Below, piece by piece: positions 11,290 to 48,632 of a stretch of DNA of 64,000 nt. The notes beneath the pieces are model-generated. The model did not search any database. It saw nothing but the letters and a program-made list of their open reading frames with translations, and was not told the origin of the DNA. A program made the translations under genes and the position numbers. How positions within the stretch are numbered: the stretch's first letter is position 1; the number at the start of each line of letters is the position of its first letter. Where the stretch lies: contig NZ_CP017755.1 in the NCBI RefSeq assembly GCF_001854325.1, positions 496,001 through 560,000 of the forward strand. The letters run 5' to 3'. Source of the stretch: Cupriavidus malaysiensis. Lineage in GTDB: Bacteria > Pseudomonadota > Gammaproteobacteria > Burkholderiales > Burkholderiaceae.

Positions 11290-11618
11290 GAAGCGTCAAC
11301 AACATAATCAATCGGCGACGCCCTTCGACAGCGCCAGATGACAGCAAGGAATGCGATGGCTACAAGGGGGAGAGATCGACGGTTCCGAAAAGGACGCCGC
11401 CCCCAAGCCCAACAACAGACAGTGGGTTTCAGGTACGGAAGCTATACCGTGACGAATATGCTGCAGCAAAGAGGACTCAAGGCGATTCCTGCTCTGGCGA
11501 TGGCCAATGCTATGTCGCTTCCGTGGCTGACGAGTCGGGAAGATCAGAGCAAAAAATGGGGGCTGGGCTCTATCTATCCTACAGATGTGGGATGGCACCC
11601 CCCTATCTGAGCGACTAG
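11290..11618 (+). pseudogene. Remnant ending in a tail shared with the second autotransporter locus
   Basis: After the terminator no intact gene is visible until 11659. Two overlapping plus frames end within a block of about 50 bp (11569-11619) that recurs at 45459-45509 with two differences. One frame ends in SIYPTDVGWHPPI (stop 11608-11610), the other in GMAPPYLSD (stop 11616-11618). The second frame has two cysteines (DSCSGDGQCYVAS) spaced like the C-terminal part of LprI-type lysozyme-inhibitor proteins, but this is only suggestive. I read it as a decayed gene end. Confidence 0.4.
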
Positions 11619-11658
11619 TGTAGTTACTTTGCAGGCCACCCACCACGTGGAGGTTCAG

Positions 11659-13200
11659 ATGCGGCGGTGCGCAACCATCCTGCTGACGGCATGCGCCCTG
11701 ACGCCTGGTGCCAGAGGCCAAGATGTTCCGTGTCCTGACGTAGCGTCGGCGCCCGACGAAATCGCGTTCAACGTACGCAAGGGAGTCCCTCCTTCGGTTG
11801 CATCTAAGCCAGCGCCTCATCTGGGCGCAACCGGGACTCTTTCCCCCCTTGCGGCGACGGTCGGTACATCCACCGCTGCAGCCTTCTTTGGTTCAAGCGT
11901 GTTAGGGCGCGGTAACTCCACACTGAGTGCGAGCTCATTGGATGACTTCCACCCTAGCGCTGGCGACATCCCCCATTTGGGTATTTCCAGTCCTGGTCAC
12001 GATCAGGCGAAAACCCTCCTTGAACAGCTTCGTCGTCAACAGCTGCCGCCAATCTATGGTGGCATCACCCCTAGTCCACCTATCTTCGGACAGTGGGAGC
12101 CGTCTGGCCCTCACATTGCTGTCTCCGCCGGACCGACAATCCCCAAACGCTGGAGCGGCACCGAGATGACTATCGAAAAACCGGGGCAAGAGGGGGAGCT
12201 ACAGAGGGTCCTAGGGCCGGAGCCCATTTCCACGGCTCAGAAAAAGAATTTGGAAGCGTTGGCGAGCAATCCCGAATGTCCGCTGCTCACCTTGTCGACG
12301 ATGAACAGTAAGCGTCAAGCCTTGGGGGACTCCTACCCTACCTACAAAGACCAGACTGAACTCCAGAAGGATAGTCGCCTATACCTAGCCGACCGGGGTG
12401 CCTACGTTGCGCGTGGATCGAGAAACAGCGCAATGTTCGACGATTACTTTGCCGCTACTCAGGCGGCACTCTCTAAATGCCTGCTTCCTGCTACGGAGAG
12501 TCGCGCTTATAGCGAACTGGAGATACCTAAGCGGCTCGGGTTCATCTCACTGAACTCAACGACCGTCTGCGAAGCGTGGCTTCTATCGCGCGACTTCATC
12601 TTGACAGCCCGTCACTGCTGGGCAGAGGACGGCCCGAGGCAAGACTTCCAGGCAGGGATGGGCTACTTCCGCCCGTCGGGTACAACGAAGCGTTATCAGA
12701 TCTGTGGCGCCCAGACCCAGAATCGGAAGTTGAGCGACAAGACGCTAGCCGAGGAGCAGCTTGTACTCCGAATAGCACCGGTTGAATACTCGGTCAGAGC
12801 CATCTCAGTCGCTGCTCCTGCGGAGGTCAAGTCGTGGAAAGACTTGAATGGCTCTAAGACTCCTGATTCGATCGTGCTTTTCTCCTGGCTCGACGAATCC
12901 GCAAAATACGACGCCTCTTACCCGAATGATCTGTTCCTACCCCGTAAGTCTTGCTACGTGGTGAACTATGGTACCGACGGGTGCTTTTCGCACTTCTGTC
13001 CAACGTTCGGCGGAACGAGTGGCGCCCCTATCTTCGCCAAGACTGCCGGCACTTGGAAGCTCCTCGGCGTCCATATCGGAGCGGCGCAAGCGACGGGCTC
13101 ACCGCCTCCCTATCCTGCGTGCAAGGACGCCTCACCCAACGTCAATGGGGGGCTAGTGGCCAATGGAGATCTCATCAAGAAATTCTCACCTAAGGAGTGA
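11659..13200 (+). CDS. Secreted trypsin-like serine protease
   Basis: A 513-residue exported protein. ATG 11659 is preferred to 11629 because GGAGG precedes it and it begins a signal peptide (MRRCATILLTACALTPGARG). The C-terminal half has the chymotrypsin-fold hallmarks: LTARHCW with the catalytic histidine at about residue 319, and GGTSGAPIF with the nucleophile serine at about residue 454; the aspartate is not certain. The first 250 residues match nothing I recognise. The next gene starts directly after the stop, so the two form an operon. Base use is more mixed than in the flanking autotransporter, and the pair sits between two copies of GACTAGT, consistent with insertion. Substrate unknown. 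Confidence 0.7.
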   Translation: MRRCATILLTACALTPGARGQDVPCPDVASAPDEIAFNVRKGVPPSVASKPAPHLGATGTLSPLAATVGTSTAAAFFGSSVLGRGNSTLSASSLDDFHPSAGDIPHLGISSPGHDQAKTLLEQLRRQQLPPIYGGITPSPPIFGQWEPSGPHIAVSAGPTIPKRWSGTEMTIEKPGQEGELQRVLGPEPISTAQKKNLEALASNPECPLLTLSTMNSKRQALGDSYPTYKDQTELQKDSRLYLADRGAYVARGSRNSAMFDDYFAATQAALSKCLLPATESRAYSELEIPKRLGFISLNSTTVCEAWLLSRDFILTARHCWAEDGPRQDFQAGMGYFRPSGTTKRYQICGAQTQNRKLSDKTLAEEQLVLRIAPVEYSVRAISVAAPAEVKSWKDLNGSKTPDSIVLFSWLDESAKYDASYPNDLFLPRKSCYVVNYGTDGCFSHFCPTFGGTSGAPIFAKTAGTWKLLGVHIGAAQATGSPPPYPACKDASPNVNGGLVANGDLIKKFSPKE

Positions 13201-14196
13201 ATGATGGTTCTGAGTCGTCGCACCGTTCTGGGTCTACTCGGTGTGTTGTGCTTCGCCTCCACTGCACACGCGCGAGATCCTCAAGTACGAGTTGGCTTGT
13301 CAGCAGTCTGCCCGTCGCAATTCACCGGTGGTACAGCACAGGGCGAAAGTGTCTTCCTCGCGGCCGGTGTCGCCATAGCTACCTCTGCGGCCGCGAATAT
13401 TGCGGGTCATCTCGTCGACAAAGCAGCTACCTATCTGACAGCAGAAGATGCCATCAAGGCGACTGATGTGATGCCGGTCAGCGCGCTTCTCACGTCCAGT
13501 ACAGGCTCGGGTGATAAGAAGGTCTTTATCGCCTCCCCGGCGAAATGTGTTTGGGTAGCAGTCGCTGACGAATTCAGCGAGCCGGGCATCGACGGGGGAG
13601 GTGCAAGCATAAAGGGCTCAACGTGGGCTGAACCCACGTCTGATCAAGCTCGTGCGATCGTTCCGTTTCCAATCGCATCAAACGCTCCGGCCATGATGCT
13701 CGGCATGGTGGGAGCCAAGTCTCCCTTGCGCTTCTACTTTGAAGGTAAGTGGGTATCGCACGACAAGGAGCCCCTTTGGCGCCTTGCGCCGCAACTCGCG
13801 TGGTATCCGCGTTTCATCGCGCAAAACAATATCTTCAAGAGCCAACACGATCTGGCCATGACGCTGACATTGACGGAGCCGGGTAAGGACACCGCTATCG
13901 CGTCGTTTCCGCTCGTCCAGAACGCCATCGAAGAAGGCGACCTGACGACAGAACGAGTTCGGTCGATCCGATACCCGTGGGTTCCCATCCCCAAGCCAGC
14001 GACCATACCTGCCGACGGGGGGGCGTTCTATCCAGTCAACCTCACGGTGAACTTCATCGAAACTCGTAAGCCAAATGCGTTCGCAAACGCTTTAGGTAAG
14101 GCTCTTGCGGACAACAAGAGTTCGGTGACAGGTGCCGTCAGTAGCGAGACGAACAAAGCGCTTGGGGGAGGCTCTAGTAGCGCTGGGAACAAGTAG
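13201..14196 (+). CDS. Secreted protein of unknown family, partner of the protease
   Basis: 331 residues with a signal peptide (RRTVLGLLGVLCFASTAHA). ATG 13201 abuts the protease stop and AAGGAG lies just upstream, so translation is probably coupled; ATG 13204 is an alternative. The body is a mixed alpha/beta-like sequence with two cysteines and a Ser/Gly/Asn-rich tail. No known domain is recognised. Cotranscription suggests it is a substrate, inhibitor or targeting partner of the protease at 11659-13200. Confidence 0.65.
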   Translation: MMVLSRRTVLGLLGVLCFASTAHARDPQVRVGLSAVCPSQFTGGTAQGESVFLAAGVAIATSAAANIAGHLVDKAATYLTAEDAIKATDVMPVSALLTSSTGSGDKKVFIASPAKCVWVAVADEFSEPGIDGGGASIKGSTWAEPTSDQARAIVPFPIASNAPAMMLGMVGAKSPLRFYFEGKWVSHDKEPLWRLAPQLAWYPRFIAQNNIFKSQHDLAMTLTLTEPGKDTAIASFPLVQNAIEEGDLTTERVRSIRYPWVPIPKPATIPADGGAFYPVNLTVNFIETRKPNAFANALGKALADNKSSVTGAVSSETNKALGGGSSSAGNK

Positions 14197-14331
14197 CGAC
14201 GGAAGATAAAACGTCCCGTGCAATGCGTGCGAATAGGTAAGTTGCACCAACGAGCAAGGCTCTTGCTGCATGCATGGGACTAGTTCTCCAATTACTGGCT
14301 CTGCTTCGTCCCAGAGGTCATATGGACCGCT

Positions 14332-14442
14332 TCTGGCCGGCCTCGGCCGACTGCTCTACCGGCAAGCCCGGCGGCCTCTACGTGGAACTGCCGTGGCCAG
14401 AGCGTACGTGCTGTGCATACCCGAATCGACCGAGGGCCCTGC
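14332..14442. repeat. Block duplicated at 45552-45676
   Basis: About 110 bp (from TTCTGGCCGGCCTCGGCC to CGAGGGCCCTGC) recurs at 45552-45676 with a few substitutions and a 15-bp internal duplication in the second copy. It lies in the 252-bp gap between the secreted protein and the glycosylase-like gene, where no other feature is seen. Confidence 0.8.
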
Positions 14443-16542: not shown

Positions 16543-19302
16543 ATGAATCGGAACACCTACACAACCGCACAGCTAGCTGCAATTGATCACCTGGCGGGCA
16601 ATCTCCAGCTGATTGCCTGCGCCGGATCCGGCAAAACCGAGGTGGTGGCACAGCGCGTGGTGAGTCTTCTCCGACCGGCGGCAGAAGGCGGTGGCGGCTG
16701 CAGGCCTGAAAACATTATCGCCTTCACCTTCACCGACAAGGCGGCCGCCGAGCTCAAGGAACGTATCCACCAGCGCTGTGCCGAGGCGTTTGATAGCCTT
16801 ACTGGGCTGGCCGACATGTACGTGGGAACGATTCATGGCTTCTGCCTTGAGCTGCTGAAGTCCGAAGTGCCCGAGTACATGAAGTACGAGGTGCTCAACG
16901 AAGTGCAACAGACACTGTTTGTCGATCGCCATTCCCGGGCCTCGGGGCTGACGCAAAGCTCTACCCTTACGGGCATCGCACTCAAGCGCTATACCGACAC
17001 CCGGCACTACGTGTCCTCCCTTTCCATCCTGCGCGAGGACAAGGCGGTCGATCCGACCAAGCTTCAGGGGAACACGGTGGTGAAGGGGCTCGGGACCTAC
17101 GAGCAACTGCTGCACAACAAGGGTTACTTCGACTACTCGAGCATCCTCAGGGAGGCGGTCAATGAGTTGGGTAGCAATGGCGGGTTGCGTCAGCGCCTCG
17201 CGGATCGCGTCCAGCATGTAATCGTGGACGAATATCAGGACGTCAATCCGATCCAGGAGGCCGTGGTGAGCACGCTGCACACGCTTGGTGCCGATGTCTG
17301 TGTGGTGGGGGATGACGACCAGACGATCTACCAGTGGCGCGGCAGCGACGTACGCAACATCCTCGGTTTTGAGAATCGCTATAAGGACGTGACGCAGGTC
17401 AAGCTGGAAAAGAACTTCCGTTCAAGTGAAGGCGTTGTGGCAGTTGCACGCGATTTCATTCGGCAATTATTGCGACGTCTGCCGAAGGAGATGAAGCCGA
17501 CAGCGGCGCAAGACTATGAAGCGGGGGATATTGTTGCGCTCGGCTTCGACTCGCCGGAGGACGAGGCCCGCTACATCGCCGAAACCTGCAAGACGCTGCA
17601 TGGCTTGGCAATTCGCGAGGGCGATGAGACGCGCGGCATTTCCTGGTCGGACATGGCGATCCTGCTGCGATCGGTGCGACGTGACGGCGGCGCCCTTATG
17701 GCGGCGCTGGATGCGGCGGGCGTGCCCTACGTAATCACCGGCATGGACAACCTCTTCGCCAAGCCGGAGGCGGAGGCGGCGCGGCAGTTGTTCTATTTCC
17801 TCGCCGGGGAGATCGACGACAAAGCCCTGCGAACCAGCTGGCAGGCGGCCGATCTCGGGATTGCGAAGAAAGCCCTCGATCAGGCGGTCCAGGCCGCCGC
17901 GCAGGCCAGGAAGGACATGCAGGACGCCCAAATCGGACAGTTCAAGGTCTACAACCTACAGCGCCAGTACATGGCTTTTCTCGAGAGTGCCGGCATCAGA
18001 GAGGAGAGGGTGCCCAACGGTCGGGGCGAGGTGGTGTTCTACAACCTTGGCAAGTTCAGCCAAGTGATCTCGGATTTCGAAAGTATCCATTTCCACTCGA
18101 ACCCGGTCGAGAAGTATCAGAGCTTTGCCGGCTTCCTGCGCCACCATGCCGAGAATGCCTACCCTGAGGGCTGGCAAGACAACGCCTTCGTCAGTCCCGA
18201 CGCAGTCCGCATCATGACCGTGCACCAGGCCAAGGGGCTGCAATGGCCAGTGGTATTCATCCCGCAACTGGTGAGGAACCGATTCCCGGCCAAGGGCGGC
18301 GGCGGACGGACTGCCTGGCACCTGCTGCCAGACGCCGCCTTCGACAATGCAGTGCGCTACAAGGGAGGCGTCGAGGACGAGCGGCGCCTGTTCTACGTGG
18401 CACTGACGCGGGCGCAGAAGTTCCTGCACCTGAGCTGGGCGCCGCATGACGGCAACAAACTCGCGCAGCAACCGTCTGATTTCTTCAACGAAGTGCTGGC
18501 CTCGAAATTCGTCAAGCGCCGTGCTCAGGATTACGCCGGCCGCAGGCGACTCGCCGCCCGGCCGAAAGCCTCAGTCGCCAACGTCACGTTATCGTTCTCG
18601 GACCTCAAGTATTTCTTCGCTTGTCCCTATCAATTCAAGCTGCGCATTCTCTACGGCTTCAACGCGCCGCTGGATGAGGCGCTGGGTTTCGGCAAGTCGT
18701 TGCACGATGCGCTGGCGGAAGTTCATGCCCGAGCACTGCAGGGCGAGCAGATCAAACCCGAGGAAGCTGAAGTCCTCGTCGCGCGGCACCTGCGGGCGCC
18801 CTATGCCTACCCGGCCCTACGCGAGAAGCTCGAGGGGGCGGCCAAGCGGATCGTCGAGGGTTACATCAAGAGGAACGCGGCCGAGTTCAAGAACCTAGAG
18901 TTCTCCGAGAAAGCGATCGAGATCGCGCTCGGTGATGGCGTATCAGTGGCCGGCCGGATCGACCTCGTGCGCCGGATCGACAACGGCGAGGTGACGATTG
19001 TCGATTTGAAATCGAACGACCGCGCCCAGGCCGAGGCGGTCACCGAGACCCAGCTCCATATCTACTCGCTCGGCTACCAGGAGCTCACCGGCCGGCCGGC
19101 GGATTACGTCGAGATCTACGAACTCGATGAACAAAAACGGAAGCGTCGCTCGGTGGATGATGAATTCATCGCCGTCGTGAAGCGCGACGTGCGGACGGCA
19201 GCAACGGCGCTGCGAAGCAATGCGCTGCCGCCCAAAGCTCACAAGAAGACCTGCGGTCAGTGCGATTATTGCAACCTGTGCTCGGCCGCCATCGTGAAGT
19301 GA
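16543..19302 (+). CDS. UvrD/PcrA-like helicase fused to a PD-(D/E)XK nuclease with Fe-S cluster motif
   Basis: 919 residues. Superfamily 1A helicase motifs are in order: GSGKT (28-32), Walker B IVDEYQD (227-233), GDDDQTIYQWRGSD, TVHQAKGLQWPVV, and RRLFYVALTRAQ. A RecB/AddB-type nuclease follows: D807 in GRIDLV, D821 and K823 in VDLKS, then TQLHIYSLGYQ. Cysteine 694 together with C904, C907, C910 and C913 makes an AddB-like iron-sulphur cluster likely. This is one polypeptide rather than the AddAB pair, a layout often found in defence islands as well as in stand-alone repair helicases. It should unwind and degrade DNA. A 33-codon truncated ORF follows 15 bp later, suggesting the operon once continued. 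Confidence 0.85.
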   Translation: MNRNTYTTAQLAAIDHLAGNLQLIACAGSGKTEVVAQRVVSLLRPAAEGGGGCRPENIIAFTFTDKAAAELKERIHQRCAEAFDSLTGLADMYVGTIHGFCLELLKSEVPEYMKYEVLNEVQQTLFVDRHSRASGLTQSSTLTGIALKRYTDTRHYVSSLSILREDKAVDPTKLQGNTVVKGLGTYEQLLHNKGYFDYSSILREAVNELGSNGGLRQRLADRVQHVIVDEYQDVNPIQEAVVSTLHTLGADVCVVGDDDQTIYQWRGSDVRNILGFENRYKDVTQVKLEKNFRSSEGVVAVARDFIRQLLRRLPKEMKPTAAQDYEAGDIVALGFDSPEDEARYIAETCKTLHGLAIREGDETRGISWSDMAILLRSVRRDGGALMAALDAAGVPYVITGMDNLFAKPEAEAARQLFYFLAGEIDDKALRTSWQAADLGIAKKALDQAVQAAAQARKDMQDAQIGQFKVYNLQRQYMAFLESAGIREERVPNGRGEVVFYNLGKFSQVISDFESIHFHSNPVEKYQSFAGFLRHHAENAYPEGWQDNAFVSPDAVRIMTVHQAKGLQWPVVFIPQLVRNRFPAKGGGGRTAWHLLPDAAFDNAVRYKGGVEDERRLFYVALTRAQKFLHLSWAPHDGNKLAQQPSDFFNEVLASKFVKRRAQDYAGRRRLAARPKASVANVTLSFSDLKYFFACPYQFKLRILYGFNAPLDEALGFGKSLHDALAEVHARALQGEQIKPEEAEVLVARHLRAPYAYPALREKLEGAAKRIVEGYIKRNAAEFKNLEFSEKAIEIALGDGVSVAGRIDLVRRIDNGEVTIVDLKSNDRAQAEAVTETQLHIYSLGYQELTGRPADYVEIYELDEQKRKRRSVDDEFIAVVKRDVRTAATALRSNALPPKAHKKTCGQCDYCNLCSAAIVK

Positions 19303-20704: not shown

Positions 20705-21586
20705 TCAATAATCTAGCGCGGCGACGTTTGCTGCAATGATTTCGCGCCTCTTCTCATTTGCTGAGCGCGCGAGTTGGTCGATCAGTACAGGAAGTTTTGT
20801 GTGGTTTTCTGAGGCATCATACTTTATCATTGAGAGTTTTCGCAGTTTTTTATTGATTTCAGCAATATTCTCTCGACCACCTTCCGGTGCAAATATATAG
20901 TGTGGCCTTGCCCCTGGATAGTTGAGTGCATACATTTCCATTAATGATGATATCGCGGGGTCATCCATGGAAAAGCCAACAAACAAGATCGTGTAGTTGA
21001 GAAGAATTGCATCCAAGAATGTTGCGTATCTATTGTTTCCGAATGCAAGTCGAATATACTCGGAGCGCGAGAAGATTAGGCTCGATGTATTGTCAACGGA
21101 CCCGTGTAACTTAATTAAGTAGGGTGTATCGTGATCTTTTAGGCATCTAAATACACTTTCTTCGATCTGCGAGATGACCTTAAAGCTTCTATTTCCTGTG
21201 GGGACGCATTGTGCCCAGGCAGTCTCCAGTAACTTATCGAAATTTGTGGTAATGAGGAGTCGCTGCTTGAGCGATATAAGTGACTTGTGGAGGCGAGATG
21301 GTTCGGCGGCTTTGCCATATTCTTCGGTTATCAGTTCTTGCCATTCGTCTTCGTAATCGTCTTGCAGCAACTGACAAGCTAGCAAGTAGTCTTTTGATTT
21401 AACTAAATCGATAACCTGGTCTCGCAGATGTTCCTGCCTAGATTTTGCTGCATCCTTTAGAAACTCGGGCCACCCCTTAAAAGCTGGGCTGCCGTCGATT
21501 GCCGAACTTGCGGAAACCCCAGCTCCCAAGAACAACACAACTCTTTGCTCGGCCAGATCGCGTAGAAGGTCATTGTTGAATATCAC
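20705..21586 (-). CDS. SIR2-family NADase-like protein
   Basis: 293 residues made up almost entirely of a SIR2-like domain: LFLGAGVS (18-25) for NAD binding, TTNFDKLLE (113-121), catalytic H161 in IKLHGSVD, and LFVGFSMDDP (201-210). Bacterial SIR2 proteins of this type often destroy NAD+ when a phage is sensed (as in Thoeris, DSR, SIR2-HerA and SPARSA). There is no fused sensor domain, so sensing should come from a partner. It starts 5 bp after the ParA-like gene stop, making one transcription unit. A+T content is well above the flanks. Confidence 0.85.
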   Translation of the reverse strand: MIFNNDLLRDLAEQRVVLFLGAGVSASSAIDGSPAFKGWPEFLKDAAKSRQEHLRDQVIDLVKSKDYLLACQLLQDDYEDEWQELITEEYGKAAEPSRLHKSLISLKQRLLITTNFDKLLETAWAQCVPTGNRSFKVISQIEESVFRCLKDHDTPYLIKLHGSVDNTSSLIFSRSEYIRLAFGNNRYATFLDAILLNYTILFVGFSMDDPAISSLMEMYALNYPGARPHYIFAPEGGRENIAEINKKLRKLSMIKYDASENHTKLPVLIDQLARSANEKRREIIAANVAALDY

Positions 21587-21591
21587 GATTA

Positions 21592-22683
21592 TTAGTCGCC
21601 AAGATTTTCCAGATAGCGTAAAGCAATACCTCGATAGAGCTCACGAGCCTGCTTTCTCAATCTCGTGTAACTACCGGTGCCCCTAACGGAAATCATGGGG
21701 ACGTGCTGAGTTTGTGACATCGGGGCCAAACTTCCAAGATGCCGAATATCCCCGAGGTGCGCGTTCATGTCATTGTTGACGAACATGCTTCCCAAACTAT
21801 TAGAGACCTTCTCTGGGAAGGTTGCGCCGATACTTTCATATGCCTGTACACGGCGCCTAATTTTTACTTGCTCGCCTGTATCTTCCGATATTTCCTCGTC
21901 ATATCCCGCCCTTTCTTTATGCTGTTGCGTGACGTAGCCAAGAAAGGCTAGCTTTCCCTTAGGTGACAGTTCGGATATCTCTCCGGGGTCTTCTGCCAAA
22001 GAGCAGCCAGTTTCAAGTTCCTTTTGCCATATTGTGACAGTTGTTCCAATATTTCGAATCGCCCAAAGTGAAAACACGTCGATGGACATCGGGACAACAA
22101 AGAAATCCATTGCGAGCAATACGGCACGGTTGATAGCACCTAGGGATGGCCCCATATCGAAAAATACGAAATCGTATTTTAGCTCTTTTGCGCGTCTTAC
22201 TAGTTCTGCAAAAACGAATGTGGTGCGAATTCCGCGCATCCCCCCTCCTTTTGCATCTCGCCAATCGCCTGCTAGTAAATCCTCTTGTAACGCTAGGCGG
22301 GGGTCACCGATAATGATGTCAAAGCCAAAGTCCTGGGATTTACGGATCGGAAGATCGCTCTCGTAGCCTTTTCCAAGAGAGAGCGGTCGAATAACGCTAT
22401 ATATAGAATCCGGATTGTCGGATGAATATATTTCGTTGGTAAGATCCTCTGGAAGGACATATTGGGTCAGGTTGCATTGGGGGTCGGCATCCACTACCAA
22501 CACTTTTGCCTGAAAACTTAATGCGAGTTCTGCTGCAAGATTTGCAACAAGCGTCGTCTTTCCTACTCCCCCTTTATTATTAAAAAAACATGTGGTCTTT
22601 GTGCCGACCTTCTTTACGTTGGCGAACAGCGTGAGCTGCTCTTTTGATGGCTTTGGATTGGGACTTACAGATCTTTTCCGCAT
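21592..22683 (-). CDS. ParA/MinD-type ATPase paired with SIR2
   Basis: 363 residues. The deviant Walker A motif NNKGGVGKTT (35-44) with its signature lysine 37, the switch segment VVDADPQCNLT (63-73) and FVFFDMGPSLG identify a ParA-family ATPase that should dimerise on ATP. Unlike plasmid ParA it has no ParB partner or centromere-like repeats nearby; its next gene is the SIR2-like protein, 5 bp away. A TATAAAAT hexamer-like box at 22827-22836 (minus strand) is a possible -10 element in the 187 bp upstream, so the pair may have its own promoter although the STAND gene lies upstream on the same strand. A sensor or regulator role for the SIR2 effector is inferred. Confidence 0.85.
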   Translation of the reverse strand: MRKRSVSPNPKPSKEQLTLFANVKKVGTKTTCFFNNKGGVGKTTLVANLAAELALSFQAKVLVVDADPQCNLTQYVLPEDLTNEIYSSDNPDSIYSVIRPLSLGKGYESDLPIRKSQDFGFDIIIGDPRLALQEDLLAGDWRDAKGGGMRGIRTTFVFAELVRRAKELKYDFVFFDMGPSLGAINRAVLLAMDFFVVPMSIDVFSLWAIRNIGTTVTIWQKELETGCSLAEDPGEISELSPKGKLAFLGYVTQQHKERAGYDEEISEDTGEQVKIRRRVQAYESIGATFPEKVSNSLGSMFVNNDMNAHLGDIRHLGSLAPMSQTQHVPMISVRGTGSYTRLRKQARELYRGIALRYLENLGD

Positions 22684-22870: not shown

Positions 22871-25285
22871 TCAAAGCCCCCGCTCAAGGCTATCTGCCTC
22901 CGCACGATATTTCCACAGCAAAGGATCATGCTTTGGTTCGCTGGCCCTTGATTCGGCCAATGTTGCCCTGGCTAGCGCCTTGTTGGGCGGAGTGTCACGC
23001 ATATGAGCGGACGCCATCTGAAGGAGGCACAGGTGTTTGGCTTTTCCAAGCGACATAGCGCGAGCGAGTGATATTAATGCATCTGTCACGTGCCTCTCAC
23101 GCCCTTCAATGATTCCTCGAGTAAACCAAGCGTCGGCGTCAGATGGGATCAATTGCGTGGCTTTCTTTGCCCAATCTAGTGCTTCGGCTCGTCGTGCTGG
23201 ATACTTCGCTGAAAGAAAAACGGCGTATCTATCGAAAAGCCATCCGTTATTGTTATCGGCGCCGACGGCCAATTCATAGAAAACCGCGCAATCCTCGTCT
23301 CGGCCTTCTCGGTAGGCTGTATATGCTGCACGAGCTAGAGCATGGCGATAGGCGCGATCGATACGGTCCGATATTTTCGCCGCACGACTTCGAAGAAACT
23401 CATTATATCGTGTTCGTACTTTATCCACCGAATTTGATGTCGGTACATCTGTGCCATCTACGTTGATTGTGCGACCACCACAGAATTTGAGAAACTCCGG
23501 TGAGAAGAGAATTTGCGTGTCGTTCTCGAATGTGGAGATTTGTGCAATCCCTCTACTTTCTTCGAGCGCTTCATATGCGGCGACGACGGCAACGCCAGTT
23601 TGTGCGCAGCACAATTTAAGTAGTGTATCATCGTGTATTTCCGACACCCGTGTCATCAGCAATAAAAGGTGCTGCATTGATGTCGAAATGCGCTGCCATG
23701 CATCTGCGTATAAAAATTCCCCGAGATCCTGAGAGTGCATCCGCTGAACTCTTTGGAAAGCATTTTCAAGCCCAATGCCATGCTCACCAAGTGCACCGAC
23801 GAAAACCTCTAAGACGAGTGGCTTATTCCCAAGATTGTTCGAGTATTTTATCAACGTACGATCACCCGCATCGAGAATTGGCCTTCGATTGAGCACGGCG
23901 GCGCGCGCTCGAAGAAATTTAACGGAGTCGATTTCACTCAACTTCTTTATCTCTATCTGATGGGCCTCGATGGCTTCCCTTCGTCTCGACGTCAACAAGA
24001 CACGGCCAACGCGCCGTGATAGTTCGCGCAGCTGACGCGCGAGAATTTTCACTTCCTCCGCATTGGAGGCCATCGTTTCCGTGTTGTCTATAACCAGTAG
24101 ATGTGTGTCCCTGGTAATGCCCCACTCTGTTACCAGATAATTGGAAAGCTTTTGAATGACCTGTTCTGCATCCTTTGAGAACCAAGTCTTGTCGAGTGGT
24201 TGACCATCGAGTGCTCTCGGAATCAGTGTCGCTACATCAGCAATGCCAACTTCACTGAGGCGGATTATCTCAAGTCCATTTATTCCCCACCGAGTTTTCT
24301 TTGCTGTGTAGAAGGTAATTACTTCCGGGCGATAATTGGAGCGCAGAGATCCATCCAAGAGTCGATGAACAAACTCCACTGCCAAAGTTGTTTTTCCCAT
24401 GCCGCCGTCGCCATATAGCATGCACGCGCGGGAATCGGTGTCGTTCGCCCAGTCTGCTAGCTCTTCAAGCTCTCCCTCCCTGCCTGTGAACTCAGCGGTA
24501 AGACGTCCTGGGAATAGGATAAAAGGCGACCAGTCGTCAAAGTAAGTCTTTGTTATTTCATATTTTTGTCCGGCGCCGTAACGAATCGAGTCAAACGGGT
24601 CATCAATCTCATATGAGATTTCCTGTCTACCAAAGGGGCCTTTTTCTATCTGAGCTACGACCATGCATTTCCCGGTCGCCACTCTCCTGATACTTCGATA
24701 GCAAATCAAATGACCAGAATAAGGCCTTAACGTCTTGATCGAGTACGCTGCCCCATCCGGCAGTGTCATGTAGAAAGAATCTCCCGAATCAGCAATGTTC
24801 GGTAAGACTGCTGATAAGGCGTCTAAGAGCAATCCAATACAATCACTTTCTGCTTCAGTGTCATTTTCTCCAAGTAGCCCATGTCCTTCGAGACCATCAT
24901 TTCGGTGACTAACGAAACGGCTTAGGAGCCTCTCGACGGTTCGACTATCTGTTGGTTCAAGAAGGCGCCAGCAAGGTCTCTCGTCACTATGAACTTTCCA
25001 AAGAGGTCGACTAATTCCTTGGAAAAGTTCGTTCTCTGCAAGGATGGAAAGATCGCATAGCGTGGAAACTAAGGTGCCATCAGAAGGCGCAAGCAAATTC
25101 GCAATAGGTGGCTGCGCTGTACTATTGTCCCCTCTGTTGCGCCGGCCCATTGTAACGATTTCCGCCAGCACAATGCTTGCGTGCTGCAGAATTATACGAA
25201 AGAGGCCAACATATGCCATGTGACGTTCGATGACGGATTCCGCTGCGTCAACCTCGGCCCGGATAGCTTGAATTCGCTTCTTCAC
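22871..25285 (-). CDS. STAND (NB-ARC-like) NTPase with C-terminal helical repeats
   Basis: 804 residues. Residues 1-260 are an uncharacterised N-terminal effector-like region that contains RNDGLEGH (128-135), an Arg-x6-His pair like the HEPN/Apea RNase motif. The STAND core follows: FTGRE (266-270), P-loop GDGGMGKTT (292-300), Walker B HLLVID (395-400) and the sensor segment RVLLTSRR (428-435). Residues about 600-790 are TPR-like helices (LARAAYTAYREGRDEDCAVFYE and similar). STAND NTPases in bacteria (AVAST and relatives) bind a phage protein through the repeats and oligomerise to fire the N-terminal effector. The gene is upstream of and codirectional with ParA-SIR2, 187 bp away. Confidence 0.8.
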   Translation of the reverse strand: MKKRIQAIRAEVDAAESVIERHMAYVGLFRIILQHASIVLAEIVTMGRRNRGDNSTAQPPIANLLAPSDGTLVSTLCDLSILAENELFQGISRPLWKVHSDERPCWRLLEPTDSRTVERLLSRFVSHRNDGLEGHGLLGENDTEAESDCIGLLLDALSAVLPNIADSGDSFYMTLPDGAAYSIKTLRPYSGHLICYRSIRRVATGKCMVVAQIEKGPFGRQEISYEIDDPFDSIRYGAGQKYEITKTYFDDWSPFILFPGRLTAEFTGREGELEELADWANDTDSRACMLYGDGGMGKTTLAVEFVHRLLDGSLRSNYRPEVITFYTAKKTRWGINGLEIIRLSEVGIADVATLIPRALDGQPLDKTWFSKDAEQVIQKLSNYLVTEWGITRDTHLLVIDNTETMASNAEEVKILARQLRELSRRVGRVLLTSRRREAIEAHQIEIKKLSEIDSVKFLRARAAVLNRRPILDAGDRTLIKYSNNLGNKPLVLEVFVGALGEHGIGLENAFQRVQRMHSQDLGEFLYADAWQRISTSMQHLLLLMTRVSEIHDDTLLKLCCAQTGVAVVAAYEALEESRGIAQISTFENDTQILFSPEFLKFCGGRTINVDGTDVPTSNSVDKVRTRYNEFLRSRAAKISDRIDRAYRHALARAAYTAYREGRDEDCAVFYELAVGADNNNGWLFDRYAVFLSAKYPARRAEALDWAKKATQLIPSDADAWFTRGIIEGRERHVTDALISLARAMSLGKAKHLCLLQMASAHMRDTPPNKALARATLAESRASEPKHDPLLWKYRAEADSLERGL

Positions 25286-26239: not shown

Positions 26240-26483
26240 TCCCCAAGCCACCGCCAACAACGGTGACCGGGCGTGGAAACCCGAGATATCCAGACGGACT
26301 GCTACACTCGTAGCGATTTTGTGTCCGACGCGTTCGCGCGCGCCAATTTTTTCTACGGCGGGCCGGACGGGGCAGCCTTCGGGCTGGCCGATATCCTGGA
26401 TCTCGGTTTCCACCCCCGTCGCGGGCCCGCCACCCTCACGTGGAAATGAGCGGCGGGTCTTTGATTTGATCCAGGAGGCCGCT
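26240..26483 (+). other. Structured leader upstream of the DUF1484-like gene, Ash-like reading frame
   Basis: This leader is open in the same frame as the downstream gene and would encode a peptide including GRTGQPSGWPISWISVSTP and VAGPPPSRGNERRVFD. That pattern (GQPSGWP...PVAGPPP) resembles the Ash/Icd-like peptides next to small regulatory genes in P4-type phages and many proteobacteria. The DNA is rich in short inverted repeats around 26355-26405. It may be a regulatory RNA rather than a peptide gene. Real start unknown. Confidence 0.4.
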
Positions 26484-26858
26484 ATGACCAACAGCACGGC
26501 TCACTTCGAGCCAGATTCTCGTTCTACCCCACCGGCGCACCAATTCGCCATCACCCGCCAATCCCCCCTCATCGCCGACCTGATCGCGCTGACCTACCCC
26601 GCCAACGCCAGCGCCAAGGACAGCCTCCGCGCCCAGGAACTCGCCTACGAGCTCGGCGCACTCAGCAACACCATCCTCGACGTGACCCAGCAGGGCTGCG
26701 TGGAGCTTTGGCGCGTCAGCGCCGGCCTCGCGGCGGTGCTGCGCTTGCTGGAGGCCGATGAGGAAGCCGACATGGATACGGTGGGCATCCATTGCCTGCT
26801 GGCGCCGCTGAAGGCGCAACTGGATGAGGTGGTCAGCCGCGTGCAAGCGATGATCTGA
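26484..26858 (+). CDS. Small DUF1484-like protein
   Basis: 124 residues, ATG 26484 preceded by AGGAGG. The protein is largely helical with a C-terminal amphipathic helix (LLAPLKAQLDEVVSRVQ). Length and pattern fit the DUF1484 family that I associate with Ralstonia/Cupriavidus; function unknown. A bidirectional-type terminator hairpin follows. The last 25 codons are present again at 48555-48632 after mazF, showing that the duplicated segment starts inside this gene. Confidence 0.6.
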   Translation: MTNSTAHFEPDSRSTPPAHQFAITRQSPLIADLIALTYPANASAKDSLRAQELAYELGALSNTILDVTQQGCVELWRVSAGLAAVLRLLEADEEADMDTVGIHCLLAPLKAQLDEVVSRVQAMI

Positions 26859-26870
26859 GCGGCAAGCCGC

Positions 26871-26894
26871 GAGGGCCGCTTGCGGGCGGCCCTC
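26871..26894. terminator. Hairpin between convergent genes
   Basis: GAGGGCCGC / GCGGCCCTC forms a perfect 9-bp stem with a 6-nt loop between the convergent DUF1484-like and cupin genes. No U-tract follows, so efficiency as a terminator is unsure. The corresponding stem in the right copy (48645-48668) has one mismatch. Confidence 0.5.
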
Positions 26895-26931
26895 GTGGGA
26901 TCTTGGTGGCGGGGCGAGGGCGTCCGGTGTT

Positions 26932-27345
26932 TCAGATCCAGATGTCGTTGGCTGCTGTGCGCTCGCCGCCTTCGTCACCCGTATTCAGCACGCCGCGCGG
27001 TTCGATCAGCAACAGCTTGACCTCGGCCGCGGCGTACGGTTTGTGTTCCACGCCTTTCGGTATCACGGCCATTTCCCCGGCGCGCAGCAGCAGGTTGCGG
27101 TCGCGCAGGTCGATGCGCAGTTCGCCTTCCAGCACGATGAAGGTTTCGTCGGTGTCGGCGTGCTGGTGCCAGACGAAGTCGCCTTCGATCTTCACGACCT
27201 TGAACTGGTAGTCGTTCATCTCGGCGACTACGCGTGGTTGCCAGTGCCCGTCGATGCGGCGGGCCTTGTCCAGCAGGGGGATGGCGATGCCTTGGCCGCG
27301 CGTGGCGGGGGCTTGGGTGCAGGTGTCGATGTTGGTGTCGGACAT
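26932..27345 (-). CDS. Cupin-domain protein, left copy
   Basis: 137 residues, a single cupin_2 barrel: metal-ligand motif H60-x-H62...E67 in WHQHADTDETF and the second-motif histidine in PKGVEHKPYA. Such small cupins may be metal-dependent oxygenases, isomerases or ligand binders; substrate unknown. It is nearly identical to 48706-49119 (differences such as GEMAVI versus GELAVV). It lies in front of a truncated AraC gene on the same strand, so it may have lost its regulator here. AAGGAG precedes the start. Confidence 0.85.
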   Translation of the reverse strand: MSDTNIDTCTQAPATRGQGIAIPLLDKARRIDGHWQPRVVAEMNDYQFKVVKIEGDFVWHQHADTDETFIVLEGELRIDLRDRNLLLRAGEMAVIPKGVEHKPYAAAEVKLLLIEPRGVLNTGDEGGERTAANDIWI

Positions 27346-27425
27346 GGGCTTCTCCTTGGTGGGGGATGGATGAAGCCAAGGCTACGCCGGGGCGCGGCGC
27401 CGGTCTTGAACGATCTTGCGTGGGC

Positions 27426-27589
27426 TCAGCGCCGGCGCGGCGCGCTGGCGATCTGCAGCCAGCGTGCGGGGGTGTGGCCGTAGGTCTTGGTGAAGTGGCG
27501 GGTCATGTGGCTCTGGTCGGCGAAGCCGGCGGATGCGGCCGCGTCGGCCAGGCTGAGGCCGTGCAGCATCAGCCGGCGCGCGGTGTCCA
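27426..27589 (-). pseudogene. 3' fragment of an AraC-family regulator
   Basis: Encodes only the last 54 residues of the AraC protein that is intact at 49200-50027 (matching ADAAASAGFADQSHMTRHFS and the ALAADRQ-region in the other frame). The 5' part is replaced by IS256-family transposase sequence from 27590. It has no start codon of its own. Confidence 0.85.
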
Positions 27590-28281
27590 TTGAACACCTT
27601 CATCCAGAACTTGGCGCCTTCGGTGGTCTCGATCCACAGGCCCAGGATGTCGCGCGTGCCGTCTGGCAGTACGCCCAAGGCCAGGTAGACGGCCTTGTTG
27701 CGCACCACCCCGTCCTCGCGCATCTTGACACGCAGTGCGTCGAAGAACACCACCGGGTACATCACCTCAAGCGGACGGGCCTGCCAGGCGGTCACCTCGT
27801 CCATGACCGCATCGGTCACCGAACTGATGAACTCCGGCGAGACCTCGGTGCCGTACTGTTCGGCCAGAAACGCCTGGATCTCTCGCACGGTCATGCCCCG
27901 GGCGTACATGGCGATGGTCTTGTCGTCGAAGTCGGTGAGGCGCCGCTCGTGCTCGGGGATCAGGATCGGGGCAAAGCTGCCGTCCCGATCGCGCGGAATC
28001 TCCACCCGCAGCGGGTCATCGTCGGTCAGGACGGTCTTGGCGGTCTTGCCGTTGCGCTGATTGGCCGTGCCGGCCGGGCGCTCAGCGCCCGGCGGATAGC
28101 CCAGATGATGGCCAAGTTCGGCGCCCAGAGCTCGCTCGATCAGGGCCTTCTTGAACGCCATCGAGGCATCCTGAACCGCCTCGGCGGTCATCGGGCCCTT
28201 TACGAAATGGGCAATCAGGTCCTCGGGAATGCTCGGCAGCTCGCGCTCAGCAGCCTGGTTGGTCTTGGTTTTGCGTGGCAT
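27590..28281 (-). pseudogene. IS256-family transposase, 3' truncated
   Basis: Starts MPRKTKTNQAAERELPS and is intact through ILGLWIETTEGAKFWMKVFN, then changes into an unrelated frame of the AraC fragment. The formal open frame continues to 27382, but those extra residues are not transposase. Confidence 0.85.
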
Positions 28282-28460: not shown

Positions 28461-29655
28461 CGCGACTCTCCACTCGTTTCGGCACGCCCGTCACGATCGT
28501 CGCAACCGCGATGGCCAGTACGACGGCGGCCCCGACGAACACACCAGCCGCGCCGTTTGCATCAAACATGACGCCACCTGCCGCTGCGCCGGTCGCGATC
28601 GCGAGCTGCACGGCCGCGACGATCAGGCCGCCCGCGCTCTCGGCTTCATCGGGTACGGTGCGCGTGACCCATGTCGACCATGCGACCGGCACGCCGCCGA
28701 AAGCCATCCCCCAAAGCGCGACAAGCACCGCATCGATCATCGGCGCGCGGCCGAGCGCTACGAGCCCGATCCCGAGCACGACCATTAGCGCGGGCATTGC
28801 GATCAGCATGGGCCGCAGCCGGTGCTCAAGCACGCGGCCGGCGAGCGACGTGCCGACGAAGTTCGCGACGCCGTAGCCGAGCAGGATCGCCGATAGCCCG
28901 TTTACGCCAACGCCCGCGACCTGTTCGAGGAACGGCCGCAGGTACGTGAAGAACGCAAAATGTCCCGTGAACACGAGCGTCGTCGCGAACATTCCGAGGC
29001 CGACGGTCGGCCGGCGCAGCACGTCGATCAGCGTGCGCAGGCGCGTCGTTCCACTCGGCGGCATCGACGGCAGCGTCGCGACCTGCGACAGAAACGCGAC
29101 GCCGCCAAGCGTGGCTGCTAACAGGAACACGTTGCGCCAGCCGATCAGGTGGCCGAAGTAGCTGCCGAGCGGGGCTGCTGCGATCGTCGCAACGGCCACG
29201 CCGCTGAAGATAATCGACAGTGCGCGCGGCACCATCGCAGCAGGCACGAGCCGCATCGCGGTGGCCGTCGCCATCGTCCAGAAGCCTCCGAGCGCGATGC
29301 CAAGCACAATGCGGCCAATCAGAATCGCCATGAGGTTGGTCGCAAACGCAACCGCGAGATTCGACGCGACCAACAGCACCGAAAACGCGAGCAGCACGCT
29401 CCGCCGGTCGATCGTACGCGTCACGGCAGCGGTCAGCAGGCTCGCGACGAGCGCGACCATTGCGGTGGCCGTCACCGTCTGTCCGGCGACACCTTCGGTC
29501 ACACCGAGGCTGCCAGCCATCGGTGTGAGCAGGCTCGCGGGCAGGAATTCGGCCGTGACGAGGCCGAACACGCCAAGCGACATTGCGAAGACCGCACCCC
29601 AGGCGGGTTCGCTGGGGGCCGCTAGCGGGGCGGCCTTGGAAATTCCGGGATTCAT
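28447..29655 (-). CDS. MFS exporter, DHA1-like
   Basis: 402 residues with twelve hydrophobic helices. The N-terminal half carries the MFS motif in helices 2-3 (TRTIDRRSVLLAFSVLLVAS) and the region ALGGFWTMATATAMRLVP typical of the NepI/YdhP-like drug and purine-ribonucleoside exporters. Start ATG 29655 is preferred to 29748 because the first transmembrane helix begins shortly after it. The last few residues (VESRACAG) run into the ISNCY fragment, so the native C-terminus may be altered. Divergent from an AraC-type regulator that probably controls it. Confidence 0.85.
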   Translation of the reverse strand: MNPGISKAAPLAAPSEPAWGAVFAMSLGVFGLVTAEFLPASLLTPMAGSLGVTEGVAGQTVTATAMVALVASLLTAAVTRTIDRRSVLLAFSVLLVASNLAVAFATNLMAILIGRIVLGIALGGFWTMATATAMRLVPAAMVPRALSIIFSGVAVATIAAAPLGSYFGHLIGWRNVFLLAATLGGVAFLSQVATLPSMPPSGTTRLRTLIDVLRRPTVGLGMFATTLVFTGHFAFFTYLRPFLEQVAGVGVNGLSAILLGYGVANFVGTSLAGRVLEHRLRPMLIAMPALMVVLGIGLVALGRAPMIDAVLVALWGMAFGGVPVAWSTWVTRTVPDEAESAGGLIVAAVQLAIATGAAAGGVMFDANGAAGVFVGAAVVLAIAVATIVTGVPKRVESRACAG

Positions 29656-29772
29656 GCGTCGTTCCGTGAGAGGAAAAATCGGGAAAAGTGCAATGACGGC
29701 ATATCGTAAGCAGCGATGGCAAGACGGTATATGACATACAATCCGCAATCATTGATCAATCGTCCGGATCCA

Positions 29773-30777
29773 ATGTCCGCTTCCCTTCCTGCTCCCGTTC
29801 CCGACGTGCGCGATCTCGTCAGCGAGCTGCTGCTGGGGATGCGCCTGAGCGGCGTCCAATATCGCCGCATCCAGGTCCCGCGCCCGTTCGGGTTGAGCTT
29901 CGGGCACGTCCCGGGACGCGCGCAGTTCCATTTCGTCGGACGCGGGCCGGTCCTGCTGCGCGAAGCGGCTGGCGCAACGATGAGGCTTGAAACCGGTGAC
30001 GCGATCCTGTTGCCGCACGGCAGCATGCACGCACTTGTGTCCGATCCAGACGCGCTGTGCCGTCCCATCGGTGCCTTCGAGACCGAGAAGATCTGCGACT
30101 CGATCGCGTCGGTCGGTACGCCACCGCCGTGCACGGGATCTGATCCGACGGGCGGCGACGCGCTGATCTTCAGCGCGTGCATGGAGTTTGATCTTGGCGG
30201 AATGCAGCCGCTCGTCGGCACGATGCCGGAGTTCATGCACGTCGGCACACTGCTCGCGCGCTACCCCGAAATCCGTCCGATGCTCGATGCGATGGAGCGC
30301 GAATCCTGCTCGGAGCGCGCAGGCTTCGCGGGGATCCTCGCGCGGCTCGCGGACGTAGTCGCCTCGTTCATCGTGCGCGGCTGGGTCGAGTGCGGCTGCG
30401 GCGACGCAACGGGCTGGGTGCAAGCGCTGCTCGACCCGAAGCTCGGCCGCGCGATCGTCGCGCTGCACCGCGATCCGGGCCAAAACTGGAGCGTCGCGGA
30501 ATTGGCCGCCGAAGCGGGCGTGTCGCGTTCGGTGTTCGCCGAGCGATTTCTCGCGGCGACTGGGATGACGCCCGTGCGCTACCTGACCGAGCTGAGGATG
30601 CGGCTCGCCGCGCAATGGATCGCACGTGATCGCGAGGCGATCGAATCCGTTGCGTACCGGCTTGGCTACGGGTCGCTCGCCGCGTTCAGCCGCGCATTCA
30701 AGCGGGTGGTCGGGCGGCCACCGGGGGCGGTGCGTGCGGAGGCTGACGCGGCCTACGCCACGCGTGCCGTGCCGTAG
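29773..30777 (+). CDS. AraC-family regulator with N-terminal cupin domain
   Basis: 334 residues from ATG 29773; ATG 29716 would add 19 residues and overlap the promoter region. The N-terminal 190 residues are a cupin_6-type sensor (GDAILLPHGSMHALV); residues about 225-325 are the AraC double helix-turn-helix (WSVAELAAEAGVSRSVFAER and AYRLGYGSLAAFSRAFKRVV). It is divergent from the MFS exporter, a very common pairing in which the regulator controls the exporter in response to a small molecule. The 117 bp between the two starts contain AT-rich near-repeats (ggcatatcgtaag and ggtatatgacata) that could be operator sites. Confidence 0.85.
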   Translation: MSASLPAPVPDVRDLVSELLLGMRLSGVQYRRIQVPRPFGLSFGHVPGRAQFHFVGRGPVLLREAAGATMRLETGDAILLPHGSMHALVSDPDALCRPIGAFETEKICDSIASVGTPPPCTGSDPTGGDALIFSACMEFDLGGMQPLVGTMPEFMHVGTLLARYPEIRPMLDAMERESCSERAGFAGILARLADVVASFIVRGWVECGCGDATGWVQALLDPKLGRAIVALHRDPGQNWSVAELAAEAGVSRSVFAERFLAATGMTPVRYLTELRMRLAAQWIARDREAIESVAYRLGYGSLAAFSRAFKRVVGRPPGAVRAEADAAYATRAVP

Positions 30778-30935
30778 GCCGAGCAGCCAGAGCAGCCAGC
30801 GGATACGGATGACGGCTGCGCGCCTCCGGCTCAGTGCCTGTTTTCGAGCCTGGAGCGGCGCTTGATGACGTGCCAACGGCTGTCGGATACTGACCGTCAG
30901 TCGCCATCTAAGGTGTCCGGCCAATCCGGTCGGAG

Positions 30936-45500: not shown

Positions 45501-45725
45501 GCGACTAGTTGTGAAGCTTCAATACGTTGTATTCATGGTTCATCCGAACTGATTCTGGCCGGCCTCGGCCGACTGCTCTATCGGCAAGTCTCTATCGGCA
45601 AGTCCGGCGGCCTCTACGTGGAACTGCTGTGGCCGGAGCGTACGTGCTGTGCATAACAGAATCGACCGAGGGCCCTGCGTGAGGTCTTGCAGGGCGTCTT
45701 GCGGGAGGTGCATGAAGCTGTGGCT
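45459..45725. repeat. Collapsed copy of the 11.57-15.27 kb patchwork
   Basis: Three blocks occur here in the same order and orientation as upstream but with the intervening genes absent: 45459-45509 matches 11569-11619, 45552-45676 matches 14332-14442, and 45678-45725 matches 15226-15272 (the ParS-like C-terminus, SFMHLPQDALQDLT on the minus strand). The genes between these blocks at the first locus (protease pair; glycosylase) are missing. From 45726 to 45807 nothing is seen. Confidence 0.85.
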
Positions 45726-48554: not shown

Positions 48555-48632
48555 TGTGGCATCCGTTGCCTGCTGGCGCCTCTGAAGGCGCAGTTGGATG
48601 AGGCGGTTAGCCGTGTGCAAGAGATGATCTGA
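48555..48632 (+). pseudogene. 3' tail of a DUF1484-like gene
   Basis: The last 25 codons (LLAPLKAQLDEAVSRVQEMI) match 26781-26858. The rest of the gene is missing; the fragment begins 10 bp after the mazF stop, marking the left end of the duplicated block. Confidence 0.85.

Follow-up and report, generated by a model that had tools for sequence, protein, structure and literature searches.

Two adjacent minus-strand genes of the window (the whole stretch of 64,000 nucleotides of Cupriavidus malaysiensis DNA analyzed here), encoding a ParA-type ATPase and a stand-alone SIR2-domain protein, form a unit, and the pair is probably an undescribed phage-defense module. That the two genes belong together is strongly supported by their conserved adjacency, overlapping starts and correlated divergence, by the grouping of the SIR2-paired ParAs in their tree, and by the placement of some pairs in a documented prophage hotspot. 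The reading that we favor, and hold to be fairly likely, is that of a self-contained, horizontally mobile two-gene abortive-infection module in which ParA would serve as the ATP-driven switch of a SIR2 NADase. The features concerned are as follows:

21592..22683, minus strand: ATPase of predicted ParA/Soj fold, first gene of the pair, 363 aa, ATG start; proposed ATP-dependent switch
20705..21586, minus strand: stand-alone SIR2-domain protein, second gene of the pair, 293 aa, GTG start; proposed NADase effector
21587..21591, minus strand: spacer between the ParA and SIR2 genes, 5 bp
22549..22581, minus strand: deviant Walker A motif of ParA, residues 35-45 (NNKGGVGKTTL), including K37 and K42; of 54 pairs, 51 keep K37 and 51 keep K42
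21242..21244, minus strand: codon of SIR2 N115, aligned to DSR2 N133 (our own count); N in 54 of 54 pairs
21104..21106, minus strand: codon of SIR2 H161 (KLHGS), aligned to DSR2 H171 (our own count); H in 54 of 54 pairs

The gap of 5 bp had been noted in an earlier, sequence-only reading and is confirmed by the two ORFs; the residues proposed there for mutation, K42 (the P-loop lysine of KGGVGKTT) and H161, are both present in the window proteins. At 46.3%, the GC content of the pair is below the 63.1% of the window, and only 1 of 249 equally long windows sampled has a lower value.

Conservation and coupling of the two genes

Searching genome contigs with the window ParA turned up 298 relatives. 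We retained the 80 best, and 53 of them (L004-L055 and L057) are followed immediately by a SIR2 gene; the remaining 27 are not. The 52 pair ParAs with an unbroken ORF outscore all 27 others, with an edge so narrow (196.9 versus 196.0 bits) that the tree is the best guide to where the pair group ends, and the broken ParA of L046 scores 131.5 bits. At four loci (L026, L027, L029 and L046) the ORFs begin early, begin late or are broken, and the SIR2 match is correctly placed in each. The 53 pairs, several of them from metagenome bins, represent 7 phyla as judged from record titles: Pseudomonadota (40), Myxococcota (5), Actinomycetota (2), Bacillota (2), Bacteroidota (2), Cyanobacteriota (1) and Planctomycetota (1).

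Viral contigs gave the same picture. When the best 80 of 225 viral ParA relatives were scored with a model built from the pairs, 25 reached at least 270 bits, and SIR2 is next door in all 22 that are testable (some of them near-copies), the remaining 3 contigs stopping 0-2 bases past ParA; among the other 55, which score below 270 bits, there is no SIR2 next door. The converse search with SIR2 found 11 viral loci, with ParA directly upstream in 10 and the eleventh (L203) cut by the contig end; since these loci lie mostly on the same contigs, they serve as a check and not as an independent sample. Among the 20 plasmid matches listed (of 126 SIR2-matching records), the top five SIR2 scores (100-124 bits) all belong to proteins with ParA beside them as judged by position, and the next (93 bits) adjoins a DUF262 gene. 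In 274 genomes of the window's class, a SIR2 of at least 274 bits occurs in 3 (the window's included), each time beside a ParA of more than 400 bits, and the weaker SIR2 matches (at most 137 bits, in 4 genomes) are parts of longer reading frames (492-943 aa). Within the class of one clostridial locus (245 genomes), the pair is present in the starting genome only, where its SIR2 frame contains a stop. Conserved adjacency of the two families, on which the sequence-only reading had staked its proposal, is thus found among genome and viral relatives alike, and neither gene is always accompanied by other partners.

Distant SIR2 relatives have other partners, namely a HAM1-like protein with an adenosine deaminase, or DUF262. 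The five plasmid SIR2 regions that were opened comprise one ParA pair, two long proteins of about 3.8 kb, one SIR2 by a purine NTP pyrophosphatase and an adenosine deaminase, and one by DUF262, which limits the tie between SIR2 and ParA to the subfamily to which this SIR2 belongs. The last of these, on a Hymenobacter plasmid (L241, 1941-3819), is a 279-aa SIR2 relative that directly follows DUF262 and phosphoadenosine phosphosulfate reductase-like genes, possibly another SIR2 partner set.

The coupling of the two genes is close. The ParA and SIR2 genes overlap by 4 bp in 35 of 76 distinct pairs and lie within 15 bp of each other, either way, in 64 of the 76. Their pairwise distances are correlated (r=0.74, rank correlation 0.51, against a maximum of 0.14 in 2000 label permutations). 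The two genes are thus passed on together, although the correlation speaks to joint inheritance and not to contact between the proteins.

Genes up to 6 kb on each side of 51 pairs were grouped into families. The top recurring neighbor is a DNA methyltransferase of about 375 aa, which directly follows SIR2 in 8 of the 51 pairs (the next most frequent family occurs in 5), and a relative of it directly precedes ParA in 4 more (L131, L133, L135 and the Salmonella plasmid L195). All twelve methyltransferases keep an SPPY motif, which we take to be typical of N4-cytosine methyltransferases. Apart from this enzyme, no third conserved gene was found around the 51 pairs. An 804-aa STAND-like ATPase gene directly upstream of the window pair (22871..25285, minus strand) was considered as a third component and was left out of the system because its relatives do not recur beside other pairs.

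The idea that the pairs sit in defense islands was likewise rejected. From 156 neighboring genes of 330-900 aa around 53 loci, 95 were drawn at random and 90 were scanned after removal of five methyltransferase third genes. At an E value of 1e-20, PADLOC matched few of them: mad3 had 2 members, and PDC-S02, PD_DExK, DolB, PDC-M37B and a CARF model had a single one each (25 of 26 families listed); the Pfam families (25 of 98 listed) are mostly housekeeping, with integrases in 2. The chromosomal loci are therefore untypical as defense islands, and the neighbor survey counts against a simple guilt-by-association case.

The two proteins and known SIR2 systems

The window SIR2 matches the Pfam family SIR2_2 with 98.1 bits. 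N115 and H161 are present in all 54 pairs compared (the window's and 53 others). N115 is aligned with N133 of DSR2, presumably the catalytic residue of that protein. H161 is aligned with DSR2 H171, the residue mutated (H171A) in solved DSR2 structures according to PDB titles. The predicted model of the window SIR2 is nearest to KomC, ThsA and DSR2 among the PDB matches listed, and the 50 PDB entries among these matches are defense sirtuins and the related human FAM118B. Three traits of defense SIR2 NADases of the ThsA, DSR2 and KomC type are seen, namely the SIR2_2 fold, the catalytic Asn and His, and a protein free of the Cys4 zinc module. We infer NADase activity from the fold and the catalytic residues; the enzyme probably destroys NAD.

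The ATPase matches AAA_31 (96.3 bits, Pfam), is predicted to have the Soj fold and carries the signature lysine. K37 and K42 are each kept in 51 of the 54 pairs, the Walker A motif being missing in L018, L046 and L050 only, where the ORF calls are truncated or broken. The fold and the deviant Walker A are common to this protein and the Soj/ParA partition ATPases, which work with ParB; solved Soj chains have about 245-265 aa, whereas ParAs of the pair-type clade exceed this length and are accompanied by an effector-like protein. Of the traits of a type I partition system, the ParA fold and the signature lysine are thus present, and the partner gene encodes SIR2 instead of ParB. A solved relative, DIP2308 (PDB 3pg5), is a structural-genomics target labeled merely as an uncharacterized protein; with this structure and such small genes, the system should be quick to test.

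Several known systems resemble the pair in part. One is SIR2-HerA (Nezha), which the available text of PMC11559045 describes as likewise consisting of two genes, for a SIR2 NADase and a P-loop ATPase, with anti-phage activity. Its ATPase is HerA, whereas that of the window is an AAA_31 protein of predicted Soj fold. Kongming is defined by KomB, the HAM1-like partner of the SIR2 protein KomC, and in Lamassu LmuA works with the SMC-type LmuB; no HAM1-like, SMC-type LmuB or TIR domain was found in the five window genes scanned. In Kongming the SIR2 partner is HAM1-like ('HAM-SIR2' and 'KomBC' in PDB titles; the plasmid SIR2 by a purine NTP pyrophosphatase and an adenosine deaminase is of this kind), as against ParA in the window. 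The PADLOC model of SIR2-type LmuA matches the window SIR2 with 91.1 bits over 257 residues; the model, however, has a length of 433, as against a protein of 293 aa accompanied by ParA. Thoeris, as far as the available part of PMC12948488 describes it, combines a ThsA that has a SLOG domain with the TIR partner ThsB, whereas the 293-aa window protein has SIR2_2 only. DSR1 and DSR2 share the SIR2 domain, with the catalytic N and H aligned, but are single proteins of about 1000-1250 aa and not a 293-aa SIR2 with a separate ATPase, and their NCBIfam models score 47.4 and 38 bits on the window SIR2 against a cut-off of 1400. SPARSA, finally, needs a short pAgo and APAZ, whereas the partner here is ParA, and the PADLOC Aga_SIR2 matches span the SIR2 region only.

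No description of a ParA-SIR2 pair turned up in NCBIfam, in the PADLOC library of 2023 or in searches of open-access text up to August 2026, so that the earlier claim that no such system had been described goes uncontradicted by these sources, although a newer catalogue could already name the pair. In the available portions of some open-access phage papers, SIR2 and ParA occur together as arabinose-promoter names or at unrelated loci.

Partners of the wider ParA lineage

Many ParA relatives that lack SIR2 have instead a gene with a RelA/SpoT domain directly downstream. In 9 of 31 such cases a gene of about 190 aa lies directly upstream of ParA, and the two that were scanned have no Pfam match. 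In 15 further cases an AlbA_2/Schlafen protein with HATPase_c_4 is encoded directly upstream of ParA, in 5 a HEPN_RiboL-PSP protein directly downstream (3 of the 5 with Pfam scores below the cut-off), and in one (L222) a PIN_12 protein directly downstream. Altogether, 180 ParA sequences were classified by partner as SIR2 (76), RelA/SpoT (31), AlbA/HATPase (15), HEPN (5), PIN (1), no recognized partner (31) or cut (10, as judged from the downstream DNA), and the remaining 11 were manually placed in a group of partition-type and other sequences, the partner having been scanned for two of these, L181 (weak ParB_N) and L185 (DUF3102). As these five partner classes were the only ones sought, sequences labeled as having none may hide partners; equally, the 31 without a recognized partner suggest that some ParAs of the lineage may act alone. 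Two ParA relatives adjoin phage repressor or regulator genes, one in Salmonella phage ST160 (L193, 2995-4068), next to the c2 repressor, and one in an E. coli prophage (L237, 2999-4075), near yfdP, neither with a recognized effector beside it.

The type of partner goes with the phylogeny of ParA. On the tree of the 180 sequences, from which L146 and sequences outside 230-480 aa were left out, a single change separates SIR2 from the rest when the cut sequences are omitted, and 4 changes are required when these are grouped with the rest; the five effector classes alone take 4 changes, which is the minimum possible, and RelA/SpoT against all other sequences takes 6. On a second tree, of 72 sequences under a mixture model (with 26 of the 76 SIR2 sequences, and without cut, partition-type and five odd sequences), the SIR2, AlbA and HEPN groups each fall on one side of a branch with SH-aLRT values of 99, 99 and 100, respectively, and the RelA/SpoT sequences are interrupted by sequences without a recognized partner. 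Partner type thus tracks ParA phylogeny, and exchanges of effectors have been rare.

The ParA lineage is thus a hub with various effector partners, a fact missed by the sequence-only reading, as was the methyltransferase in some pairs. The SIR2 pair is probably one branch of a wider family that couples ParA-type ATPases to different, likely toxic enzymes. A broader proposal, which we put forward tentatively and rate slightly below an even chance, is that the ParA fold was co-opted as a general-purpose switch of immunity: separate clades of one lineage, usually annotated as partition proteins, would be coupled to SIR2, a RelA/SpoT synthetase, HEPN, PIN or AlbA/Schlafen with HATPase, sometimes with a self-marking methyltransferase, and surface-bound dimers would sense invaders and free the effector. 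If true, this would amount to a new class of modular immunity, and the parallel effector clades can be compared, as a natural experiment, to learn how one ATPase fold could control several chemistries.

Three loci of the lineage have additional neighbors. In L066 an Mrr-type endonuclease gene (851-1687) lies directly upstream of ParA; L073 has a 278-aa gene (5094-5930) with a start resembling that of the L066 gene, and a transposase-like ORF (by eye) between ParA and RelA/SpoT; and on the viral contig L140 (3770-8308) ParA lies between an AlbA/HATPase gene and one whose 771-aa product weakly resembles PglZ (24.6 bits, against a cut-off of 25).

Mobile settings, proposed mechanism and alternatives

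In a survey of 60 genomes of the genus with a SIR2 profile, a high-scoring family member was found in the window genome only, and in six other genomes the SIR2 match scores 72-110 bits and forms part of an open frame of 477-1249 aa. This rarity, together with the low GC content, points to horizontal gain of the pair. The right flank (28467..30780) is present nearly whole in 4 other genomes of the 60, which do not share the DNA to the left of it, and the left flank (11500..14200) has only 29-bp matches in other genomes.

Elsewhere, ParA-SIR2 lies between P2-type gpA-like and portal genes in about four distinct prophages (L025/L115, L122/L123, L136 and L146; placement by blastp to the two named genes, L025 being a genome contig and the other five viral contigs). 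ParA-RelA/SpoT occupies the same place in L155, L156/L157, L163 and L167; in E. coli J31 the annotated order is replication endonuclease, small gene, DinI, ParA, RelA/SpoT, portal. Other pairs lie beside an integrase (L120), beside a tail gene (L124 and L130) or near a replication gene (L131). The available text of Rousset et al. 2022 (PMC9122126) presents the gpA-portal region of P2-like prophages as a hotspot of diverse systems, with phage protection shown for old-tin, for 3 of 8 further cloned hotspot systems and for one from phage AC1. According to the same text, the hotspot also holds non-defense genes, including a putative partition system, and partition genes there are taken as a sign of plasmid-like prophages (PMC9122126). 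We considered whether that 'putative plasmid partitioning system', assigned in the available text to about one-quarter of E. coli P2-like prophages (PMC9122126), is the ParA family of the pair, and this was not borne out: the ParA-RelA/SpoT pair occurs in only 7 of 5426 E. coli genomes, and the Salmonella methyltransferase-ParA-SIR2 DNA has no DNA-level match among E. coli genomes. In the available part of a paper on the gain and loss of defense genes (PMC5379612), ParA family ATPases are used as a sign of mobile elements, although that lineage may differ from that of the pair.

It is plausible that ParA gates or localizes the NADase, as the sequence-only reading had proposed. The analysis shows adjacency, conservation, co-divergence, predicted folds, catalytic residues, the mobile and hotspot settings of some pairs and the effectors of the sister clades; phage protection, contact between ParA and SIR2, the thing sensed and the direction of control are inferred. 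SIR2 would be the effector which, once on, hydrolyzes NAD+ and halts the infected cell. ParA dimers are ATP-bound and often bind DNA; the ParA of the pair would be the control subunit, with an ATP-bound dimer that attaches to DNA or to some other surface. Depending on the nucleotide state of ParA, SIR2 would either be kept inactive or be brought together as an active oligomer. In a simple scheme, invader DNA, or its handling, would shift that state, upon which SIR2 would assemble. In pairs with a methyltransferase, this enzyme may mark self DNA, and sensing of unmodified DNA would be the likely variant there. Helical structures of ThsA, KomC and Avs5 (PDB titles) show that some defense SIR2s act as filaments. 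We lean modestly towards a ParA that is needed for the activation of SIR2 rather than one that is purely an inhibitor.

The main rival explanation is a toxin-antitoxin or addiction pair, in which SIR2 would be a constitutive toxin restrained by ParA and would mainly keep the mobile element, with phage defense secondary; we regard it as unlikely, though deserving of real weight. The ParA gene comes first and often overlaps the SIR2 start, and antitoxin-first gene order is common in toxin-antitoxin pairs; RelA/SpoT, HEPN and PIN domains, which are among the sister partners, belong to classes known among such toxins; and some pairs lie on prophages and plasmids. Many pairs, however, are found in chromosomal contigs whose flanks are not shared, SIR2 defense effectors are generally inactive until triggered, and hotspot placement suits defense, although addiction genes could sit there too. 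We consider it improbable that SIR2 is a protein deacylase or a signaling enzyme rather than an NAD-depleting effector. Weak matches to CobB-type deacylase models (NCBIfam, 15-20 bits) speak for such a role; against it, a pattern search found the Cys4 zinc pattern of deacylases in none of the 76 pair SIR2s, and the PDB matches listed are those to defense sirtuins and FAM118B.

More improbable still is a true DNA partition system with SIR2 as an accessory, despite the predicted Soj fold and the signature lysine of ParA. As the sequence-only reading had stated, ParB is absent nearby, with no ParB domain in a Pfam scan of three neighboring window genes; in the whole genome the single ParB_N match above cut-off is found on contig C1, where a ParA-like match lies about 0.8 kb away, and a match below cut-off (23.8 bits) is found on C2, separated from the pair by about 475 kb. 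Moreover, nothing but the methyltransferase is conserved as a third gene around the 51 pairs. The Vibrio ponticus plasmid pVPon1 carries the pair about 2.6 kb from its own ParA/ParB, so that the pair is unlikely to be the partition system of that plasmid. The genome's ParA that lies beside ParB (L002) scores 75.6 bits, and L181, with the weak ParB_N partner, 87.6 bits, against at least 325 bits for unbroken pair ParAs, on a model built from the pairs themselves. We give least credence to the view that the genes are neutral hitch-hikers with separate functions, adjacent through shared travel on islands; although some pairs do lie in mobile settings, the pair stays intact over 7 phyla while its flanks vary, and it shows close or overlapping starts and correlated divergence. 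If the preferred reading, an abortive-infection module switched by ParA, is right, a ParA-type sensor or switch joins the catalogue of NAD-depleting immunity, and some chromosomal or prophage genes annotated as 'ParA family protein' may control toxic effectors, unrelated to partition.

The window holds several further elements. A UvrD helicase gene with a PD-(D/E)XK nuclease domain (16543-19302, plus strand) has a helicase region that matches PADLOC RTasHel (226 bits) and GajB (180 bits), and a C4 antisense RNA (RF01695) lies at 26351-26437 on the plus strand (68.8 bits, cut-off 45). A scan for repeats of 60 bases or more found a direct repeat of 300 nt, 91% identical, at 26784-27083 and 48558-48857 (21.8 kb apart), with a transposase-like ORF (27382-28281, by eye) close to the first copy, and a repeat of 89 nt, 93% identical, at 14354-14442 and 45590-45678, the copies lying 3.3 and 0.4 kb past two long repetitive autotransporter-like ORFs (by eye).
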